This document shows positions 3,842-58,965 of a stretch of DNA of 64,000 bases, piece after piece. Under the pieces are notes generated by a model. The model was not told where the DNA came from and made no database searches. It saw only the letters and a program-made list of their open reading frames with translations. The DNA comes from Caldifarciminota bacterium. Its GTDB lineage: Bacteria; Hydrothermota; Tepidihabitantia; SM23-42. Position 1 is the stretch's first letter; every line of letters begins with the position of its first letter. The DNA is taken from positions 1,519,718-1,583,717 of the forward strand of contig CP070705.1 of the NCBI GenBank assembly GCA_020349965.1. Reading direction: 5' to 3'. Made by a program: the position numbers and the translations under genes.

Positions 3842-3869
3842 TTGACATCATCTGAATCTTGTGTAAGAT
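3842..3869 (+). promoter_or_regulatory. Promoter of the chaperone-usher-like cluster
   Basis: TTGACA (3842-3847), 16-base spacer, TAAGAT (3864-3869). Predicted leader is about 70 bases to the GTG at 3949, which has a strong AGGAGG site. It would drive the four overlapping genes to 7652. Confidence 0.6.
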
Positions 3870-3948
3870 ATTTTAGACTTAAGTCTTTATCGTAACAATG
3901 AAGCAAATAATGGTCTGACTTGAGTGATGAGAATACAAAGGAGGCAAA

Positions 3949-4545
3949 GTGAAGGTGACATTGATACTCGTGCTTCTCATACCGACGCTGCTGCTGGGAA
4001 GGATCATCGAGGGCGGACCCGGCGACCGGATCATGGGTTTCGCACCTGGAGACACGCTCATCGACACCCTGCGTGTAACGGTTCGCGTTCCTTCCCGTAT
4101 CGGGTTGTACGTTAACGGTAATACGGAATTCGACCTCGGCGATGCTGCCGTAACCTTTCCACCGTTGGTCTTTCCTGGTTATTATGACCCAACATTGGTA
4201 GGCGGTACTAACACGGACGGAGTCGATGTTGAGGTCTTTTCAAACTCTCAAACGTTGACCTGGCATCTGGAGACGTGTGGCAGCGGTGATTTCAGCTTGA
4301 CGATTGCGCTTGACCAGTTGTATTACGCACCTGATGGTGAGGCGAATCCGATTGATGGAAATGACCCACCAGGCGGCAACTGGCTTTCTTTTACCACTAC
4401 GTACACGGAGATCGCCAATGGAACGAACACGACAGGTTGGCAGGATGAAAGCCAGGATTACATTTTTCAGGCCGAAACAGACGACGCACCGACTCCTGCC
4501 GCAGGTGAGAACGTTACAATCTACTATCGTGTCTATGCTCAATAG
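3949..4545 (+). CDS. Secreted fibre subunit-like protein 1 (hypothetical)
   Basis: Protein of 198 residues with a signal peptide (MKVTLILVLLIPTLLLG) followed by a beta-rich, cysteine-poor domain. Not recognised by family name. It is paralogous to the next gene: both share FPxYYxPTL, a GSGDFS block, LDQLYYAP/LGQLYFAP, a DPPGGNW motif, QDYIF.AETDD and a C-terminal strand ending YYRVYAQ/YYRVYGL. The alternating hydrophobic final strand with a near-terminal aromatic is reminiscent of chaperone-usher pilins. GTG start is preceded by AAAGGAGG. The neighbours encode a PapD-like chaperone and an usher-like barrel, so a pilin-like role is inferred. Confidence 0.7.
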   Translation: MKVTLILVLLIPTLLLGRIIEGGPGDRIMGFAPGDTLIDTLRVTVRVPSRIGLYVNGNTEFDLGDAAVTFPPLVFPGYYDPTLVGGTNTDGVDVEVFSNSQTLTWHLETCGSGDFSLTIALDQLYYAPDGEANPIDGNDPPGGNWLSFTTTYTEIANGTNTTGWQDESQDYIFQAETDDAPTPAAGENVTIYYRVYAQ

Positions 4546-4567
4546 ATCGAAGTAAGGTGTGAGGCCG

Positions 4568-5086
4568 ATGGGCAAATCTATCTTTTTTCTGCTTTTCCTG
4601 TCGGCCTCAATTCTCTTCGCACGTACCCGCTTGATCGTCATCATCGATTCAGACGTGGAATTTGATCTCTATCAAGTAATATATCCTCCCAGCATTTTCC
4701 CGACTTATTACAGGCCGACACTGGCATCTGGATTGAATCCCAACGGAATCCTGCTCACGATTGGATATCAGAGGGTCGGAAACCAACATGACATTTCAGA
4801 TGTCTTCGTTTCGACCAGGGGAAGTGGTGATTTCTCTGGTTCAATAGAGCTCGGCCAGCTGTATTTCGCACCAAATGGGGAACCGTTACCACCTGCAGGG
4901 GTCGACCCTCCCGGTGGTAACTGGCGGCCATTCAGTGTCTTCTATCAGGAAATAGAACACATGGAGGTTAGTGGTCCAGGGTTAACGAGATTCGAACGCC
5001 CCCAGGATTATATCTTCAAAGCCGAAACAGACGACGAATCCGGTGATCAGTCAATAACTTTGTATTACCGAGTTTATGGATTATGA
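4568..5086 (+). CDS. Secreted fibre subunit-like protein 2 (hypothetical)
   Basis: Paralogue of the preceding gene, 172 residues from the ATG at 4568. A longer form from GTG 4559 is possible, but the ATG gives a clean signal peptide (MGKSIFFLLFLSASILFA) with a GAGG-like site upstream. It lacks the first about 30 mature residues of its paralogue and keeps the shared blocks FPTYYRPTL, GSGDFSGS, LGQLYFAP, DPPGGNW and QDYIFKAETDD. The last strand ITLYYRVYGL has a glycine 14 residues from the C-terminus, the layout seen in chaperone-recognised pilin strands. Its stop overlaps the chaperone gene (ATGA). Adaptor/tip versus major subunit cannot be told. Confidence 0.68.
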   Translation: MGKSIFFLLFLSASILFARTRLIVIIDSDVEFDLYQVIYPPSIFPTYYRPTLASGLNPNGILLTIGYQRVGNQHDISDVFVSTRGSGDFSGSIELGQLYFAPNGEPLPPAGVDPPGGNWRPFSVFYQEIEHMEVSGPGLTRFERPQDYIFKAETDDESGDQSITLYYRVYGL

Positions 5087-5817
5087 ATATACTATCCTTA
5101 GTAGTAATCGGGTATCTTGGTTTCACCGTGGGACCGGCAAAGGTCGAGAAGACCGTTTTGGGAGCAGAGAATGTGACCGAGGTATTCGAGGTTCAGAACT
5201 TCACAGACGATTCCCTGAGAATCAAGGTCGAATTCGAGGATTTTGACATCGATGAAACGGGTCAGGTTTCTTTTTATGCTCCCGGTCACTTCAGCAATTC
5301 CCTTGCGTCGCGTGCCACCGTCAATCCGGAAGAATGCGTCGTTCCGCCAAAGGGAATCGAGAATCTCAGGGTCACATCCGTCTTGCCGCGTGAAGGTGCA
5401 GTACCGGAATATCGAGCAATGATCCTTTTCAAGTCAAAGCCGATCCCAACGAGCTATTCGACGGCCGTCAATGTCGCCGGCGAAATCGGCGTCCCGATCT
5501 ACTACACGATGTCACAGTACGCAGTGAAAGGATTTTCATTGGACAGCTTCTTCGTGCAAAATGATACGTTGGAGATCGTCTTGACTAACACCGGCAATGT
5601 CCACCTCAGAATCAAAGGCGAATTTGTAATCAGCACGTACGATACCAAGATAGTGCAGCAGGATTCCCTGCCTGAATTAGTGGTGATGCCGGGGAGAAGA
5701 AGGAAATTGAAGATCGGGATAAAAGAAACACTTCACGACGTTGTCCATGTGGCTAAAGTGATCTTCGATTACGGCGCGATTGAGTTGATCATGGGTGAAA
5801 GGAAATTCGCCAAGTGA
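5083..5817 (+). CDS. PapD-like periplasmic fimbrial chaperone (putative)
   Basis: Protein of 244 residues with a short hydrophobic N-terminus. The first half has PapD-type organisation: early strand VGPAKVEKTVL, then VFEVQNFTDDSLRIKVEF, and the VNPEECVVPPKGIENLRVTS block matching the P-x-x-PPG-x-x-x-V-R-V strand of pilus chaperones, then EYRAMILFK. The second half (about 150-240) is a second beta domain with IVLTNTGNVHLRIKGEF. Overlaps genes on both sides by 4 bases. Expected to cap the two subunit-like proteins and hand them to the downstream barrel. Family assignment is by pattern; a generic Ig-like assembly factor is the alternative. Confidence 0.62.
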   Translation: MNILSLVVIGYLGFTVGPAKVEKTVLGAENVTEVFEVQNFTDDSLRIKVEFEDFDIDETGQVSFYAPGHFSNSLASRATVNPEECVVPPKGIENLRVTSVLPREGAVPEYRAMILFKSKPIPTSYSTAVNVAGEIGVPIYYTMSQYAVKGFSLDSFFVQNDTLEIVLTNTGNVHLRIKGEFVISTYDTKIVQQDSLPELVVMPGRRRKLKIGIKETLHDVVHVAKVIFDYGAIELIMGERKFAK

Positions 5818-7652
5818 ATATCTTGATGCTCTTTTTGCTGGTTGCTTCCAATAACCGTGTCTATACTTCATTCTACACCTATCATAGAGTGGGCGGTCAT
5901 TCGGTCACCGATCTCTACATCGATTACTTTCTACACCGTTACGACTTGCGGCTCGCGCTGGAAAAGCGGGGAGACCAAACAGGATTGAAAAGCATTTCTT
6001 TCGAAATCGATTCTGTACTTGGCGATTTTCGTCTGGCACTGGGGGATAAGCCTTACCGCGTGCGTGCCCCGGTCTGCACGAATCTTGACCTATGGGGATT
6101 ATCATTGATCAGTCGTGGTCTCGATCTTTTCTTGGGAAGGGAGCGAGATCATACCACATCGCTGCCGCCGACATTCGAAGATAATAGATATATATTGGGA
6201 GTCAGGTTGCACAGGCAGCCCCTACCACGTATTCCACTCGATTTCTATCTGGTGAGGAGGGGCGATAAAGCAGGGTATAGTCAAGTGAGCAGCAATACTG
6301 CAGCAGGCGTCAATTCAGAGATCAAAGTCGGTAAGGTGACCTTGGATAACCGGCTATGGGTCAGCCATACGGAGGAGGGGATAGGAGCGAGTTACGCGTT
6401 TGACGGCCAGTTGATGGCCCAGAAATACGGCGGACACTTGAACGTCACTACTTTGACGAGAGAATACATTCCCCTTTCCAGCGTCAAGATGCACCGCGGC
6501 AGCTGGTTCAGGTTGAATACTTATCAGAAACCGGCGGATTGGCTCGGTTTCAGCCAGGATTTGGGTTATACTTCTTGGCAGGATGTGCGGCTCACGCTCA
6601 ATACGAGACTGTCACCTGCACGCCTACCCGTGCTGACGTACGGTGTATCTCTTTCAAGAGAGAAGGTGAGCCATGTTCTTGATGGACAATTGAATTATAA
6701 GAACCTCGGTGTCAATGCAAATTATGAATGGTCGAGGGAACACCACGCCTACGGTATTAGATTGTCGCAAGATATAGTGAATTGTCGGCTTTGGTCCAGT
6801 TTCCAGCGGTGCGGGTCAGACGTGTGGCAGTTCGGTATGATGTTCCCGTTCCCGCGCTATGTAGATTTCAAATTCTATTTTAATTATGCATCTCGTCAGG
6901 ATCACTGCAGCCACACGACCGGCTTTGAAATATCATCCAAATTGTTCAGGGACCTCAACCTCAATTTCACGTACGAATACATACGGCATAATTCAGCGAG
7001 CGACCAGCATATATCATTCAGCGTTTCCAAGAGTTTTGATTTCGACCGAGTTGGACTCAGTTTCATATCTGGTAGGGTATTCATGGATGGCAACAACAAC
7101 GGAATATACGATCTTGGTGACAGGGCTATATCAGACATTGAAGTGGTTATCGATGGGAAGAGTGCGACAAAGACCGACAAGAACGGTATCTACATGTTTT
7201 CATTCGTTAGATCGGGCCAGCACTCCGTCAACGTAAATCTTGGCTGCATGCCTGCTGAAATTGGCACTGCACAGCGATCCCGGTCCGTTGATACGAGGTT
7301 ATTGTCCCAAGCACGGATCGATTTTCCGCTTGAGGTATTGGGTTCATTGAGCGGCTCCGTATTCTTCGACAACAATAATAACGGGCAGATGGATGAAGAT
7401 GAAGTTGGTGTGCCCAATGTTGTCCTTGCGCTCAATGGTTACTTGACCGCGACGGACACCGATGGAGCATTTCGCTTTGCCAATCTTGCTTCAGGTACGT
7501 ATGTGCTTGAGCCTAAGGTTCTACCTCCGGAAACTATCGCTGCTAGTCAGGAGTTACTGTTCGTGTATATAAAACCCGGGGTGAGTTTCAAGGATTGCAG
7601 AATCGGGGTAGTAAGGAAAGCGAGACCCGTTAAAAAGAAGGTATTTGAATAA
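5814..7652 (+). CDS. Usher-like outer-membrane barrel with two C-terminal SdrD-type B domains
   Basis: Protein of 612 residues. After a short hydrophobic N-terminus, residues about 15-415 are amphipathic beta strands with many alternating aromatics (for example FKFYFNYASRQ, LNLNFTYEYI), consistent with an outer-membrane barrel. Two tandem B-type domains follow, each with the calcium-loop pattern DGNNNGIYD / DNNNNGQMDEDE and a TDKNG/TDTDG strand. Such domains terminate several alternative-type ushers. It is shorter than classical ushers (about 800 residues) and no plug domain was recognised. Last gene of the 3949-7652 operon, GTGA overlap with the chaperone. The usher role is inferred mainly from context. 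Confidence 0.6.
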   Translation: MNILMLFLLVASNNRVYTSFYTYHRVGGHSVTDLYIDYFLHRYDLRLALEKRGDQTGLKSISFEIDSVLGDFRLALGDKPYRVRAPVCTNLDLWGLSLISRGLDLFLGRERDHTTSLPPTFEDNRYILGVRLHRQPLPRIPLDFYLVRRGDKAGYSQVSSNTAAGVNSEIKVGKVTLDNRLWVSHTEEGIGASYAFDGQLMAQKYGGHLNVTTLTREYIPLSSVKMHRGSWFRLNTYQKPADWLGFSQDLGYTSWQDVRLTLNTRLSPARLPVLTYGVSLSREKVSHVLDGQLNYKNLGVNANYEWSREHHAYGIRLSQDIVNCRLWSSFQRCGSDVWQFGMMFPFPRYVDFKFYFNYASRQDHCSHTTGFEISSKLFRDLNLNFTYEYIRHNSASDQHISFSVSKSFDFDRVGLSFISGRVFMDGNNNGIYDLGDRAISDIEVVIDGKSATKTDKNGIYMFSFVRSGQHSVNVNLGCMPAEIGTAQRSRSVDTRLLSQARIDFPLEVLGSLSGSVFFDNNNNGQMDEDEVGVPNVVLALNGYLTATDTDGAFRFANLASGTYVLEPKVLPPETIAASQELLFVYIKPGVSFKDCRIGVVRKARPVKKKVFE

Positions 7653-10978: not shown

Positions 10979-11104
10979 CTATGCAACAGATTTCTCATGT
11001 TCCACTGGAACTCCGGGTAACAGATTTTTTGTGACTGAATAATAGATCGCAACGAAAATCGTGAGAGCGATGAACGTGCTGATTGCGTTGACAGATGGTC
11101 TATC
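10979..11104 (-). pseudogene. 3' remnant of a PotC-like ABC transporter permease (putative)
   Basis: On the minus strand an open frame of 41 codons reads DRPSVNAISTFIALTIFVAI then YYSV...EHEKSVA and stops at 10981-10979. It has no start codon; a stop lies immediately upstream. The SVNAIST motif followed by one transmembrane helix and a short charged tail matches the C-terminal end of PotC-type permeases (consensus PEVNALST plus helix). Its 5' part is replaced by the 3' end of the beta-helix gene at 11100. I read it as debris of a gene cut by rearrangement; chance similarity is possible because it is short. Confidence 0.42.
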
Positions 11105-12347
11105 TTATTATGATCATTTTTTGGACGACTCTATTGTCTATCTCCAAGAAATAAACACCTGGCTGGATTGCACCGGGTTCAACGACTCGCCCTGTGATGT
11201 CAAAGACTCTGCACTCATTACCCGTGGGTAGTTGCAGAGGCCCACGGAAGATGGTCGCAGTAACGTTTTCATGAGTATCCACGGGTTTCACAGATGGGTG
11301 CTGCTCTATGCCGGGTCCTACGAGCCATGGTTCAAAATCAACATAGTCACTGACCGTATCACCTAGGCCAAATGGATTGGTTATGGGATGATACGGGCCG
11401 CCGTCATCACCCCACCAGTTATTTTCGGCATCGACGGTCACCCCGGAGTTCATGCAATTGACTCCATAGCCGCCATTGTCGCAAATATTACAGCGATTGA
11501 TTGTGGCATTGGCCTGGCCTGTTATGTGCAAACCATTTCCTTCATTACTCAATATGACACAACTGTCAATCGTAGGAAACGCACCATCCAAACAGGCAAT
11601 ACCACCGCCGTTTGCAGATACGTTATATGCGATATAATTGCTGACGAGTGTAGGTGTACAAGACGAGTGGATGAGGCCAATGCCGCCACCCGATTGATTA
11701 GCCGTGTTATAGGTGATTATATTGTCACGGATGACCGGCTCTATTCCATCACACCGTATCCCGCCGCCAGTCCCGAGGGCGCTGTTACCGGTTATGATGT
11801 TTCCAGTGATCGTGGGGTAATTGTAACACCGGATACCACCACCGCTGTTGTTCGTCGCATTGTTGGAAATCACGTTTGCGGTAATGATCGGGTTTGACAG
11901 ATTCAGGGCGGCAATTCCTCCACCGCCATTTGGTGCTAAGTTTTCAGTGATTGTATTGTTAGTAATCGTAGGCGAAGATGAATTGTCGCAAAGGATACCT
12001 CCGCCAAAGCCTGCGTATCCGTGGCGAATGGTGAATCCATCTATTACTGTCGCCATATCAGCGCCGGTAGAGATCTCGATCACTCGGCTGATACTATCGC
12101 CATCGACTATTGTTGTCTCCGGACCATATTCACTGATTAGTTTAACGCTAGATGTATTCGGCCAGATGATGTTCTCATAGTAGGTTCCAGGTCCAACCAA
12201 CACGGTATCATTAAAGGCACAAGAATCCAAACCTGCCTGTATCGTATTGAGGGTGGAATCGGGGTGGACGTACCAGGTGACCGCTTGCATTGAGCTACAT
12301 AGTGAAAAAACCGCGACTACTATCGCCATACAACATCTGCGTTTCAT
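11100..12347 (-). CDS. Secreted right-handed parallel beta-helix protein with T9SS-type sorting tail
   Basis: Protein of 415 residues: signal peptide (to about residue 22), a DUF1565-like opening (TWYVHPDSTLNTIQAGLDSC...VLVGPGTYYENI), then about ten parallel beta-helix rungs of the type PTITNNTITEN..GGGI. A ENNWWGDDGGPYHP capping block follows, and a short C-terminal domain with VFDITGRVVEPG, GVYFLEIDN and final KMIIIR resembles type A sorting domains. The start ATG at 12347 has AGAGGAGG upstream and a near-perfect promoter 74 bases further. Paralogous to the adjacent gene. Ligand or substrate unknown; the fold is common in polysaccharide-binding surface proteins. Confidence 0.83.
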   Translation of the reverse strand: MKRRCCMAIVVAVFSLCSSMQAVTWYVHPDSTLNTIQAGLDSCAFNDTVLVGPGTYYENIIWPNTSSVKLISEYGPETTIVDGDSISRVIEISTGADMATVIDGFTIRHGYAGFGGGILCDNSSSPTITNNTITENLAPNGGGGIAALNLSNPIITANVISNNATNNSGGGIRCYNYPTITGNIITGNSALGTGGGIRCDGIEPVIRDNIITYNTANQSGGGIGLIHSSCTPTLVSNYIAYNVSANGGGIACLDGAFPTIDSCVILSNEGNGLHITGQANATINRCNICDNGGYGVNCMNSGVTVDAENNWWGDDGGPYHPITNPFGLGDTVSDYVDFEPWLVGPGIEQHPSVKPVDTHENVTATIFRGPLQLPTGNECRVFDITGRVVEPGAIQPGVYFLEIDNRVVQKMIIIR

Positions 12348-12692: not shown

Positions 12693-14231
12693 CTATCGTA
12701 TCAGCAGTATTTTCTCTGTGGTAATGTAATCCCCAGCTTGAAAATGCAGGAAATAGACTCCACTGCTTAGTTGACGATTATGTTGATCTCTTCCATCCCA
12801 TCTTACTGATGACCAATATCCGGTAACCGATTGCTGTTTTAGTAACGTTTTGACCTTGCGACCCGTAATGTCGTAGACGTTAAGAACAATGTCGCCGCAG
12901 TCTTCCGTCATCTGGTATCTTATATCGGTGAAGTGGCGGAAGGGATTAGGAATTATCTGCAGCGCGATGATCATATTTGCTGAAGGTCCCTTCTCTTCGA
13001 TACCAGGTTCAGTGAGCCACGGTGTGAAGTCTACAAAGTTGCTTACCTGATCACCCAATCCACCCGGGTTAGAATCAGGATGATAAGGGCCAGTTGCATC
13101 ACCCCACCAGTTGTTCTCGGCGTCGACTATTATCAATGGATATAGATTCCGCACTCCGTGACCAGTATTGCTCACTATGTTGTTATAATGTAGCACAGGT
13201 CCGGAAATCTGCCCGATATACACGCCGTCGCCGATATTTCTCGATATAGAACACTCATTTATAGATGGGTCAGAGTTATTCCAACACCTGATGCCGGCAC
13301 CATATGCAGCCGTGTTACTATCGATGGCATTGCCGGTAATAATTGGTGAAGCATCATTCTCACAGTCGATACCTCCACCAAACAGTGCATAATTGCCGGT
13401 GATTATGTTGTTAATGATAGTGGGTGAAGGGTTCCCATAACAGTCGATGCCCCCAGCATAGATAGATGTGTTGTCTGTGATGGTGTTATCGGTGATGAGC
13501 GGTGAAGACCAGTTCGATACAATACCTCCGCCCCAGCGCGAATTGTTGTTCGATATGGTATTATTGCTGATGGTCGCTGAAGAGGTATCGCCACAATTGA
13601 TTCCTCCGCCATCGTAACCTGTATTTTCCGTAATGATATTATCTGAGATGATTGGTGAGCAGTTGTCATGGACAACGATGCCGCCGGCAGAACTGTCTGA
13701 TATGTTTCCGGAAATAGTATTACCGATTATGATCGCCGCACAATCTATAAACAAGTCAATACCGCCTCCATAGACGGCGGCGTTCTCAGTGATGATATTA
13801 CCGGTGATAGTGGGTGATGAATTAGTGTAGCAGCTGATACCTCCGCCGGCACTTCCGTATGGAGGTATAACCAGTCCCGTGCCATTGGTGATGGTAAAAC
13901 CGTGCAATACGGAATTCGTGTCCTCACCGCTAATGAAAATAACGACGCAGCCAGTATCCGGATGTGCAGGAGTACTCCCGTCGATTATCGTTGAGCCGGG
14001 TCCGAGTTCGCTGGTTACGGTGATAGCTTTGCCCCCGAAGTTGATGTTCTCAAAGTACGTTCCAGGTGCCACAAGTACTATGTCGCCAGTTGAACAGGAA
14101 TCGATACCGGCCTGTATGGAATTCATAGTAGAGTCCGGGTGTACATACCATATTGTGCGGTAGGCAAAGCTATTACTGACTGACAGCAACATACCGACAA
14201 TGGAGATCCACATTATACAATGTCTACCCAT
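12693..14231 (-). CDS. Secreted right-handed parallel beta-helix protein with full T9SS-type sorting domain
   Basis: Protein of 512 residues from ATG 14231; the longer frame begins at GTG 14243, which overlaps the GGAGG site and is unlikely. Signal peptide, DUF1565-like start (IWYVHPDSTMNSIQAGIDSC), then about a dozen rungs (SPTITGNIITEN..GGGI and variants), a ENNWWGDATGPYHP cap and a C-terminal type A sorting domain: IPNPFRHFTDIRYQ, LNVYDITGRKVKTL, RQLSSGVYFLHF, final EKILLIR. Paralogue of the 11100 gene with extra rungs and a complete sorting domain. Predicted to be exported through a T9SS-like route and anchored at the cell surface. Confidence 0.85.
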   Translation of the reverse strand: MGRHCIMWISIVGMLLSVSNSFAYRTIWYVHPDSTMNSIQAGIDSCSTGDIVLVAPGTYFENINFGGKAITVTSELGPGSTIIDGSTPAHPDTGCVVIFISGEDTNSVLHGFTITNGTGLVIPPYGSAGGGISCYTNSSPTITGNIITENAAVYGGGIDLFIDCAAIIIGNTISGNISDSSAGGIVVHDNCSPIISDNIITENTGYDGGGINCGDTSSATISNNTISNNNSRWGGGIVSNWSSPLITDNTITDNTSIYAGGIDCYGNPSPTIINNIITGNYALFGGGIDCENDASPIITGNAIDSNTAAYGAGIRCWNNSDPSINECSISRNIGDGVYIGQISGPVLHYNNIVSNTGHGVRNLYPLIIVDAENNWWGDATGPYHPDSNPGGLGDQVSNFVDFTPWLTEPGIEEKGPSANMIIALQIIPNPFRHFTDIRYQMTEDCGDIVLNVYDITGRKVKTLLKQQSVTGYWSSVRWDGRDQHNRQLSSGVYFLHFQAGDYITTEKILLIR

Positions 14232-14297
14232 ATACGCCTCCACTTGTACTTCTATACCTTGTGAACTTACAGAAAAATTCTCCTATACTATTACCAA

Positions 14298-56354: not shown

Positions 56355-56394
56355 CTGATAATCACTAATCACATTACCAAGCGAAAGGAGGAAT

Positions 56395-58965
56395 ATGGGC
56401 AAATTATTCATGCTGTTCTTTCCGCTCCTTATTTATGCCGGTACAGTGGGTAAGATTGCCGGCCGTGTCTTAGATGCTGAAACGAACGGACCTCTCGTTG
56501 CAGTCGACGTTTTCATTGATGAACTGCAAACCGGCGGTGCAACGGACATGGATGGTCACTATTTCATTCTCAATGTTCCACCCGGGACGTACGATGTTGA
56601 AGCTTCCATGATCGGTTATCGTGCCGAGATCAAGAAATCGGTCAACGTGTTCACCGACCGCACCACCTACATTGATTTTACTCTATTGCCAACTGTTATC
56701 GAACTCGAGACGCCCGTTGTCGTTGTGGCAAAGAAACCGGTCATCGAGATCGATATGACGTCAAAGGAGACGCGCATTACGCGTGAGCAATTTGACATCA
56801 CGCCCATTGAAAAGCCGACCGAAGCCATTGCTCTGCAGGGTGGTGTCACGACCGATGCCGCCGGAGATTTGCATGTTCGGGGAGGACGCAGCGGAGAGCT
56901 GGCGTACTACATTGAGGGCATCGAAGTATCAAATGCGTTGCTCGGTAATGCGCCCGTGCTCAACAAGAATCTGATCTCAGAGATGTCGCTCCTGTCGGGC
57001 ACGTTCAATGCCGAATACGGTAATATCATGAGCGGCGTTGTCAACATCATAACGCCCGAAGGCGGCAGCAAGATCTCGTCGAGATTGGAGTATACGTCGT
57101 TCGTTCTCAATCCTTCACCTTACCGTAAAAAGGACTGGATCAGTGATTTCGATCCAGATGATCCGGATTACTATGATGCGCACCGGTCCTTGGTCGATTC
57201 CCTCGATACCATGACCGTATCAGACTATGAAGTTCCGGATCTGCTGGGTTCCAAAGATCTTCCATTCCTCGGAGAGATAAATGCCAGCGCTGAGGGTCCG
57301 ATCCCTGGAGACCGGGCGACTCGTTTCTTCGTTGCTGGTAATTATCTAAACGAGGAATCATACCTGCCGTTTGGCTACAACCTGTCGCGGTCGGTCAACG
57401 GCAAACTGACCCGTCGATTCGGGCCCAATCTCAAATTGCTGTTAGATGCGCAGTATATCGACGAGGAATCTCAGAACTACAATCACCTGTACAAATACCT
57501 CTATGAAAATTACCTCGTCAATCACAAGACGAGCATGCGGGGAATTGTTGGCCTTAACCATGCTCCGGTCAGCAATTTCTTCTATAATCTCCGGTTCGGT
57601 TATATCCAGGACAAATTAGAAACCAAGGTGCCATCAGATATCGGGGATATTTCCGGCAGTATCGCAGCACCGATCCGTGACAACTACTCGGAATTCTACT
57701 TGTCTGGTTATCCTCAATTCCGGCAGGAGGTGAAGACTATTCAGTACATCGCAAAGGCCGATTTCAACTGGCAACTGGGGAAAATGCATAATCTGAAATT
57801 CGGTGGAGAGCAGAGTTTTTATGATTTCGAACTGTCAAATCGCCAGCAGTTGTTCACACGGACCCCGATTATCTACCAGAATTACGTTCAAAAACCGCGT
57901 GACGGCGCCGTCTTCATACAGGATAAGATAGAGCACGAATACCTGGTCGTGAATGCTGGATTACGCTTTGACTATAGCCAGGTCAATACAGTGATGTGGG
58001 AGGATATTGAAGATCCGACGTCCGCAGTCACTGATGTGAAAACGCAATACCAGATCTCACCGCGATTCGGTCTTTCTCATCCGATCACCGACAATGCAAT
58101 GCTGCATTTTGCCTACGGTCATTTCTTCCAGATGCCGCCCTATGAGATAATGTACTTCAACAGCAACTACATAACCGATCCTGAAGGTATTCCGCGCTAT
58201 GGCCTTGTAGGTAATCCGAGTATCCTACCGCAGCGCACTACGGCATATGAAGTTGGCGTCAAGTATGCGATCCGCGATCTATATGGCATCGATGTAACTC
58301 TCTTCATGAAAGATATCAAGAATCTCTTGTCAACGACAGAAGTGCGATCTTATCCGTACAATTACATCATCTACACTAATGATGATTTCGGCAGCGTCCA
58401 GGGGATCGATGTTACGTTCAAGCGGGATCTGGTGGAGGACCTCGGTTTCAGCTTCAACTACACATACCAAGTCGCGCGCGGCAACCGATCATTTGCCATG
58501 CAGGGTTTTTATGATGTTTATACGGGAAGTCCGGAGAGAAAGCAGGAATACTACCTTGACTTCGACCGAAGACACACGTTCTCCGGTACATTTCAATACC
58601 AGTTCAACGAATTGGGAGGCATTGGGATCAACGCTCAATTGTCGAGCGGACTGCCTTACACGCCTTACATTGGATTGGGCGTCGTTGTAGAAGAGAATTC
58701 CGGACGTATGGAATGGGGTCACTCAATCGACATGTTGCTTCATCAAGGCATCAGGTTCGGACGAACGCTCCTTGTCTTTTTCATCAGTGGGGACAATCTT
58801 ACCGATGCCGAGAACCCGAGATACGTGTATCCGCGCACTGGTCTACCGTGGGATGCCGGTGAAGAGGGTGGCGGCCTCATGGGATCGCCTGATTACATTA
58901 TCGACCCCTCGAATATCGGTCCGCGACGGACGATCAAGGCAGGTATCAGGGTAACAGTTTCGTAA
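56395..58965 (+). CDS. TonB-dependent receptor with carboxypeptidase-like regulatory domain
   Basis: 856 residues: signal peptide, CarboxypepD_reg-like domain (about 18-105, GRVLDAETNGPLVAVDVFIDE...GATDMDGHYFILNVPPGTYDVEASMIGYR), plug domain (about 125-225, EAIALQGGVTTDAAGDLHVRGGRSGELAYYIEG...LSGTFNAEYGNIMSGVVNIIT), then a 22-strand type barrel ending RRTIKAGIRVTVS. The organisation is that of SusC-like/OmpA-related receptors common in FCB bacteria. First gene of a three-gene run with a sorting-domain protein and PorV. Ligand unknown. Confidence 0.92.
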   Translation: MGKLFMLFFPLLIYAGTVGKIAGRVLDAETNGPLVAVDVFIDELQTGGATDMDGHYFILNVPPGTYDVEASMIGYRAEIKKSVNVFTDRTTYIDFTLLPTVIELETPVVVVAKKPVIEIDMTSKETRITREQFDITPIEKPTEAIALQGGVTTDAAGDLHVRGGRSGELAYYIEGIEVSNALLGNAPVLNKNLISEMSLLSGTFNAEYGNIMSGVVNIITPEGGSKISSRLEYTSFVLNPSPYRKKDWISDFDPDDPDYYDAHRSLVDSLDTMTVSDYEVPDLLGSKDLPFLGEINASAEGPIPGDRATRFFVAGNYLNEESYLPFGYNLSRSVNGKLTRRFGPNLKLLLDAQYIDEESQNYNHLYKYLYENYLVNHKTSMRGIVGLNHAPVSNFFYNLRFGYIQDKLETKVPSDIGDISGSIAAPIRDNYSEFYLSGYPQFRQEVKTIQYIAKADFNWQLGKMHNLKFGGEQSFYDFELSNRQQLFTRTPIIYQNYVQKPRDGAVFIQDKIEHEYLVVNAGLRFDYSQVNTVMWEDIEDPTSAVTDVKTQYQISPRFGLSHPITDNAMLHFAYGHFFQMPPYEIMYFNSNYITDPEGIPRYGLVGNPSILPQRTTAYEVGVKYAIRDLYGIDVTLFMKDIKNLLSTTEVRSYPYNYIIYTNDDFGSVQGIDVTFKRDLVEDLGFSFNYTYQVARGNRSFAMQGFYDVYTGSPERKQEYYLDFDRRHTFSGTFQYQFNELGGIGINAQLSSGLPYTPYIGLGVVVEENSGRMEWGHSIDMLLHQGIRFGRTLLVFFISGDNLTDAENPRYVYPRTGLPWDAGEEGGGLMGSPDYIIDPSNIGPRRTIKAGIRVTVS

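Follow-up and report, generated by a model that had tools for sequence, protein, structure and literature searches.

Does a run of four genes in an uncultured WOR-3 bacterium encode a chaperone-usher fiber system? The genes lie in a 64-kb stretch of DNA (the window) within a single-contig 2.30-Mb genome (G000). An earlier reading of the letters alone (the original prediction) took them for a possible divergent chaperone-usher operon of two secreted subunits (s1 and s2), a PapD-like periplasmic chaperone, and an outer-membrane barrel protein. Here, we report that the set probably is a minimal, divergent fiber system of the chaperone-usher type. Two things had been missed: the chaperone is closer to the Gram-positive WxLIP proteins than to PapD, and the system is conserved in the phylum and also occurs elsewhere.

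Conservation of the gene set

The gene set is not a chance grouping, as homologs of all its parts hold the same order in relatives. Of 147 genomes from the phylum, 29, spread over 16 of 79 genera, yielded relatives when searched with the window chaperone, and a subunit gene lies directly upstream of the chaperone gene in all 29 WOR-3 loci with flanking sequence. The barrel gene follows the chaperone gene directly in 25 of the 29; three of the other four stop at contig edges, and the last (L057) has an unmatched 632-amino-acid (aa) open reading frame (ORF) in that place. Surrounding genes vary between many of these loci, so the module itself is the conserved unit. The order differs in L017 (subunit, chaperone, subunit, barrel), which also has the longest barrel protein in WOR-3 (760 aa).

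In a tree with 66 rows, 19 of them from WOR-3, the WOR-3 chaperones form one clade (support, 97/94); at depth, PapD, WxLIP, and the other groups are joined only weakly and on long branches, and the tree does not settle their order of origin. A profile of the 29-member chaperone family matched 68 of 390 genomes (E ≤ 1e-8), of which 39 are labeled from the same genome up to the same phylum and 29 as sharing the domain only. No paper combining chaperone-usher systems with WOR-3 was found in a full-text literature search.

Chaperone

The chaperone is best read as a bridge between PapD-type chaperones and WxLIP proteins. Profile-profile comparison (hhalign) of the 29-member family with ten Escherichia coli K-12 fimbrial chaperones bore out the PapD-like assignment of the original prediction (Prob 91.9, E 6.8e-7, 191 columns), the match covering both domains and taking in the C-terminal DYG motif. 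Against ten WxLIP-type proteins, the same family matched over 231 columns, again in both domains (Prob 98.8, E 1.3e-16). The E. coli chaperones and the WxLIP proteins did not match each other (Prob 8.9), and control comparisons between proteins of different roles stayed at Prob 0.7 to 9.3. Only three Protein Data Bank sequences were matched by the chaperone profile at E ≤ 10, all of them fimbrial chaperones (FaeE twice and EcpB; E 0.24 to 0.74). Pfam searches of the 29 members (E ≤ 1) returned WxLIP_PGBD (PF06030) in 7 (best, 2.3e-7) and PapD_N (PF00345) in 5 (best, 1.4e-5), the L050 chaperone scoring just above the curated PapD_N cut-off, together with other Ig families as Ig folds would give (Cep192_D3 in 15, fn3_5 in 13). 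PF06030 exceeded its cut-off in 2 of the 147 genomes, and the window chaperone itself had no match to it.

Predicted structure gave the same two neighbors. The subunit and chaperone of a relative (L042), joined by read-through of the intervening stop, were modeled as one chain with a predicted local distance difference test score (pLDDT) of 86.7 and a predicted template modeling score (pTM) of 0.74. Its best solved relatives in Foldseek were the WxLIP structures 9i25_C and 9i1y (E 2e-13 and up), followed by CfaA, CsuC, EcpB, and FimC, with CsuC and EcpB within the top 20. VIA placed 9i25_C and 9i1y at Z 14.1 and 14.0 (228 and 227 residues aligned; root mean square deviation [rmsd], about 6) and the fimbrial chaperones CfaA (Z 11.3), FimC, YadV, and Caf1M at Z 10.4 to 11.3 (174 to 196 aligned).

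A candidate donating strand of the chaperone (residues 126 to 143; Table 1) was located by alignment to the region of the E. coli chaperones that we take to be G1, and in the L042 model the corresponding residues make up a strand 15 residues long. Read by eye, the window chaperone ends in ...YGAIELIMGERKFAK; the protein stops once domain 2 is complete, and no membrane helix follows.

Proteins of about 514 to 529 aa with a tandem pair of chaperone-like (WxLIP_PGBD) units were also seen in four genomes (G029, G047, G052, and G055); the sole such neighborhood inspected (L161, in G047) has no B-domain barrel alongside.

Barrel protein

FimD has been described, in the retrieved part of the source, as a 24-stranded pore that a plug closes in the inactive state, with an N-terminal domain for recognizing incoming complexes and a pair of C-terminal domains (PMC12122975). 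The window barrel protein was modeled with AlphaFold2 (AF2) from an alignment of 25 sequences (pLDDT, 79.2) as a signal helix, barrel strands from residue 13, and then two Ig-like domains. Ushers lead the structural matches: Foldseek returned FimD or PapC at ranks 1 to 10 (E 4.3e-18 to 7.7e-15) and in 17 of the first 18 rows, the remaining one being SdrD, and VIA ranked PapC 7lhh_C first (Z 20.0, 415 aligned, rmsd 11.0). The latter alignment sets model residues 11 to 602 on chain residues 145 to 808, from the first barrel strand through the end of the second C-terminal domain.

Two SdrD-type B domains, already named in the original prediction, were recovered by Pfam as two stretches and are the sole clear family matches in the gene set, as s1, s2, and the chaperone gave no Pfam or NCBIfam match of note. 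These domains also bring SdrD and Gram-positive surface proteins into the results when the barrel protein is searched by sequence or by fold. The 24 complete WOR-3 homologs have intact frames and the same short architecture (579 to 760 aa). Counting the window protein, 25 complete WOR-3 proteins were compared, and most have about 390 to 470 residues ahead of the B domains (572 in L017; the motif search chose an earlier false site in four rows), which leaves little room for an N-terminal domain and a plug. The protein and its homologs end in a conserved basic C-terminus, in or near F (window positions 7626 to 7649; PVKKKVFE, KPVRKKVF), which is not a barrel-end signal because it is located after the second Ig domain.

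Subunits

The subunits are one family, sharing the motifs FPxYYxPT and WxLxxxGSGDF and a C-terminal strand; the endings YYRVYAQ and YYRVYGL reported in the original prediction are both present. Two classes appear in the family listing. Class 1, which includes s1, carries an extension after the signal peptide with an alternating-hydrophobic stretch such as DTLRVTVRVPSRIGLYV; in the chaperone-adjacent class (s2 and its counterparts), the mature part begins directly at the first strand. This difference in sequence suggests that s1, with a candidate donor strand, makes the shaft and that s2, which has none, sits at the tip.

In the L042 model, the subunit body has high pLDDT, residues 17 to 27 and 29 to 32 fall below 50, and the region equivalent to the s1 donor segment is mostly low. 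A low-confidence N-terminus could be how a free N-terminal donor strand looks in a model and is not proof of one, and the pTM of the joined chain only hints at docking of chaperone and subunit.

Pfam gave nothing useful on 28 subunits. Comparison of the subunit and WxL profiles gave Prob 22.6 untrimmed and 0.8 trimmed, and the WxL assignment was not adopted; in a column-shuffle test, the score of 17.4 was reached by none of 150 shuffles (mean, 10.8; standard deviation, 1.84; maximum, 15.7), with the reversed profile at 13.9 and two hhalign runs that may repeat an earlier score. The similarity to WxL is suggestive only. A more divergent subunit class (e.g., NLDLGEIKPDMKE) was seen in L040, L041, L043, L051, and L054 to L057, mostly one gene further upstream of the chaperone.

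Related loci outside the phylum

Three Deinococcus plasmids (L085 to L087) carry the same gene set, annotated as hypothetical save for one barrel protein named for a carboxypeptidase-like domain. The WOR-3 profiles match there at E 1e-33 to 5e-36 (chaperone), 3e-9 to 3e-5 (subunit), and 9e-24 to 4e-8 (barrel). Unlike the window, these operons run subunit, chaperone, subunit, barrel, and their barrel proteins (1,018 to 1,090 aa) have an extra Ig-like N-terminal part. Among the 33 loci fetched from outside the phylum, 16 have a B-domain barrel protein directly downstream of the chaperone (18 of 37 before removal of the in-phylum loci L158 to L161, two of which have a barrel). Beyond WOR-3, the related barrel proteins are of greater length (813 to 1,070 aa), and several have extra N-terminal domains by Pfam. 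Comparison of such N-terminal domains with those of ushers gave Prob 4.5 and 8.9 and is uninformative, because a true archaic-type usher compared with E. coli ushers gave only 0.5.

At L147, the chaperone (family profile, 8e-22) follows two candidate coat-U-like subunits and precedes a protein that the E. coli usher profile hits at 1e-10. The same kind of search found the usher family, PF00577, in only 4 of the 390 genomes, and these systems would therefore escape standard annotation. On a plasmid of the monoderm Streptomyces (L088), a hypothetical protein related to the chaperone/DUF916 family adjoins a 177-aa ORF.

Comparison with known systems and alternative explanations

With the classical systems (FimC/FimD and PapD/PapC), the window set shares a two-Ig chaperone, a predicted pore with two C-terminal domains, and subunit and chaperone genes that precede the usher gene. 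Archaic and alternative systems (CsuC, CfaA, and EcpB) supply the nearest fimbrial chaperones by fold, and their ushers are full length. The Csu carboxylate anchor is Arg89/Tyr196 according to the retrieved part of the source (PMC4654587).

Several results weigh against a chaperone-usher reading. Neither PF00577 nor PF00345 has a match in the window's own genome. The usher N-terminal domain and plug are both absent from the barrel model, in which alignments begin at FimD residue 139 or PapC residue 145 and no inter-strand gap exceeds about 17 residues; the original prediction had named a barrel lacking plug and chaperone-binding domain as one half of what would speak against it, and that half was found. 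The modeled strands number 26 rather than the 24 of FimD, the pTM of the barrel model is 0.46, and the profile-profile comparison with E. coli ushers that the original prediction proposed matched in the C-terminal part only (Prob 65), with none in the barrel region. The Mtr-complex barrel 6r2q_B is tied with the ushers (Z 19.2), and many porins reach Z 14 to 16. Unrelated single Ig domains, from glycosidases and transglutaminases, also score Z 10.5 to 12.9 against the L042 chaperone, over its second domain only, so a second-domain match alone says little. The subunits had no match to E. coli pilins (Prob 12.3, which came from signal peptides) or to PDB sequences; they cannot be recognized as pilins and, with one Cys in s1 and none in s2, can form no intrachain disulfide, both as the original prediction held. 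Chaperone homology, barrel fold ranking, and gene order thus uphold its proposal of a divergent chaperone-usher system in part, and the missing usher domains do not. Because two usher features and both Pfam families are lacking, we file the system as a variant outside the described classes.

The barrel might instead be an ordinary large porin or an Mtr-like sheath that lies by chance beside a set of secreted Ig proteins, as the Mtr and porin scores and the 26 strands would allow. Given the Mtr score, the pore alone is indeed unspecific; the pore with two C-terminal domains and its gene context is specific. Ushers fill the leading Foldseek rows, the alignment runs on into the C-terminal domains, and chaperone and barrel genes are adjacent both in 25 of 29 WOR-3 loci and in 16 of 33 elsewhere, and we regard the porin or sheath as quite improbable. 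Least probable of all is a decayed, nonfunctional operon that has lost its recruiting domain and plug. Domains are missing relative to FimD, but the intact frames, the short architecture shared by 24 complete homologs, and the single clade formed by their chaperones point to selection.

A more serious competitor, though still unlikely, is a diderm WxL/WxLIP surface complex, that is, a small nonpolymeric assembly in which the barrel displays or anchors and threads no fiber. The chaperone is nearer to WxLIP than to fimbrial chaperones by both profile and fold, it is homologous to WxLIP over both domains, and the subunits-then-chaperone order recurs in the WxL/WxLIP (DUF916-DUF3324) clusters of Firmicutes: those fetched run WxL-WxL-WxL-DUF916/DUF3324, and one WxLIP with two WxL is given as the commonest arrangement in the retrieved text of PMC10599100. 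The same source predicts complexes in which a hairpin strand of WxLIP fills a gap in WxL and completes its sandwich; its main text uses none of the terms chaperone, donor strand, pilus, or fimbria. Full-text searches found no paper with both DUF916 and PapD, and WxL together with chaperone-usher returned two general works on adhesion and protein localization, judged by title. Firmicutes clusters, however, have no usher, and WxLIP has a C-terminal membrane helix that the window chaperone lacks. An usher-fold pore is present here, the s1 extension suits polymerizing, the profile match of subunits to WxL is weak, and PF13731 (WxL) has no match above cut-off in the 147 genomes.

The chaperone-usher-type fiber system is therefore the reading that we favor. 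In it, the periplasmic chaperone would bind each subunit and lend its G1 strand to finish an incomplete sandwich. The barrel would act as a reduced usher, a large pore whose two C-terminal domains hold the chaperone-subunit complex, working with neither an N-terminal recruiting domain nor a plug. The s1 extension would then take over the position of the chaperone strand in the subunit in front of it; by analogy with known pili, in which an extension is needed for polymerizing, s1 could polymerize and s2 would sit at the tip only. The product would be a thin surface fiber, probably adhesive.

Features of the locus and neighboring genes

The original prediction described four overlapping genes under one promoter. 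All four ORFs are present on the plus strand, and 4-base overlaps join s2 to the chaperone and the chaperone to the barrel only, s1 and s2 being separated by 13 bases. The promoter-like site exists; it is weak evidence because the region holds 12 sites scoring 10/12 (6.0 ± 2.3 in shuffles). All four proteins have a signal-peptide-like N-terminus when read by eye.

Table 1. Positions in the window of the genes and features discussed
Feature	Position	Strand	Basis and remarks
Promoter-like site TTGACA-16-TAAGAT	3842-3869	+	10/12 consensus match; weak evidence
Subunit s1 (198 aa)	3949-4545	+	ORF; carries N-terminal extension; proposed shaft subunit; no Pfam match
TLRVTVRVP segment of s1 (residues 40-48), proposed donor strand (N-terminal extension)	4066-4092	+	Conserved in class 1, absent from s2-type subunits; putative
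s1 C-terminal strand ENVTIYYRVYAQ	4507-4542	+	Sequence; equivalent to strand 170-178 in L042 model
Subunit s2 (175 aa)	4559-5086	+	ORF; without N-terminal extension; putative tip subunit
Periplasmic chaperone (244 aa), two Ig-like domains, PapD/WxLIP type	5083-5817	+	hhalign of 29-member family; fold matches
Proposed donating G1 strand of chaperone, STAVNVAGEIGVPIYYTM (residues 126-143)	5458-5511	+	hhalign to G1 region of E. coli chaperones; putative
Usher-like outer-membrane protein (612 aa)	5814-7652	+	AF2 model; Foldseek and VIA rankings
Beta-barrel, 26 strands by DSSP (residues 13-406), no plug insertion	5850-7031	+	AF2 model
Two C-terminal SdrD-B/Ig-like domains where usher C-terminal domains CTD1 and CTD2 sit	7059-7616	+	Pfam SdrD_B E 9.4e-21; VIA alignment

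Within the window, the subunit, chaperone, and barrel profiles match this locus alone, save for one weak match (E 1e-4) of the B-domain region profile to an ORF at 56362 to 58962. Two secreted repeat proteins are encoded on the minus strand (11100 to 12347 and 12693 to 14243), the second with a sorting-like C-terminal tail, SSGVYFLHFQAGDYITTEKILLIR, as read by eye.

Implications

We tentatively propose, at somewhat short of even confidence, that the WxL/WxLIP systems of monoderms and the chaperone-usher pili of diderms go back to a single ancient strand-donation system, of which each is a branch. Subunits and a PapD/WxLIP chaperone would have come first, and the outer-membrane pore would have joined in diderms or been lost in monoderms, with WOR-3 keeping a near-minimal usher form. 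On such a common origin, the pore here would be a bare barrel with two C-terminal domains, to which N-terminal domains were added elsewhere. The chaperone family would connect, at the level of sequence, WxLIP and the fimbrial chaperones, neither of which finds the other in a direct comparison, and the homologous Deinococcus plasmid operons make the system testable. If the reading is true, it would reveal how few parts an usher requires, with neither plug nor recruiting domain, and would extend this type of fiber assembly to an uncultured phylum.

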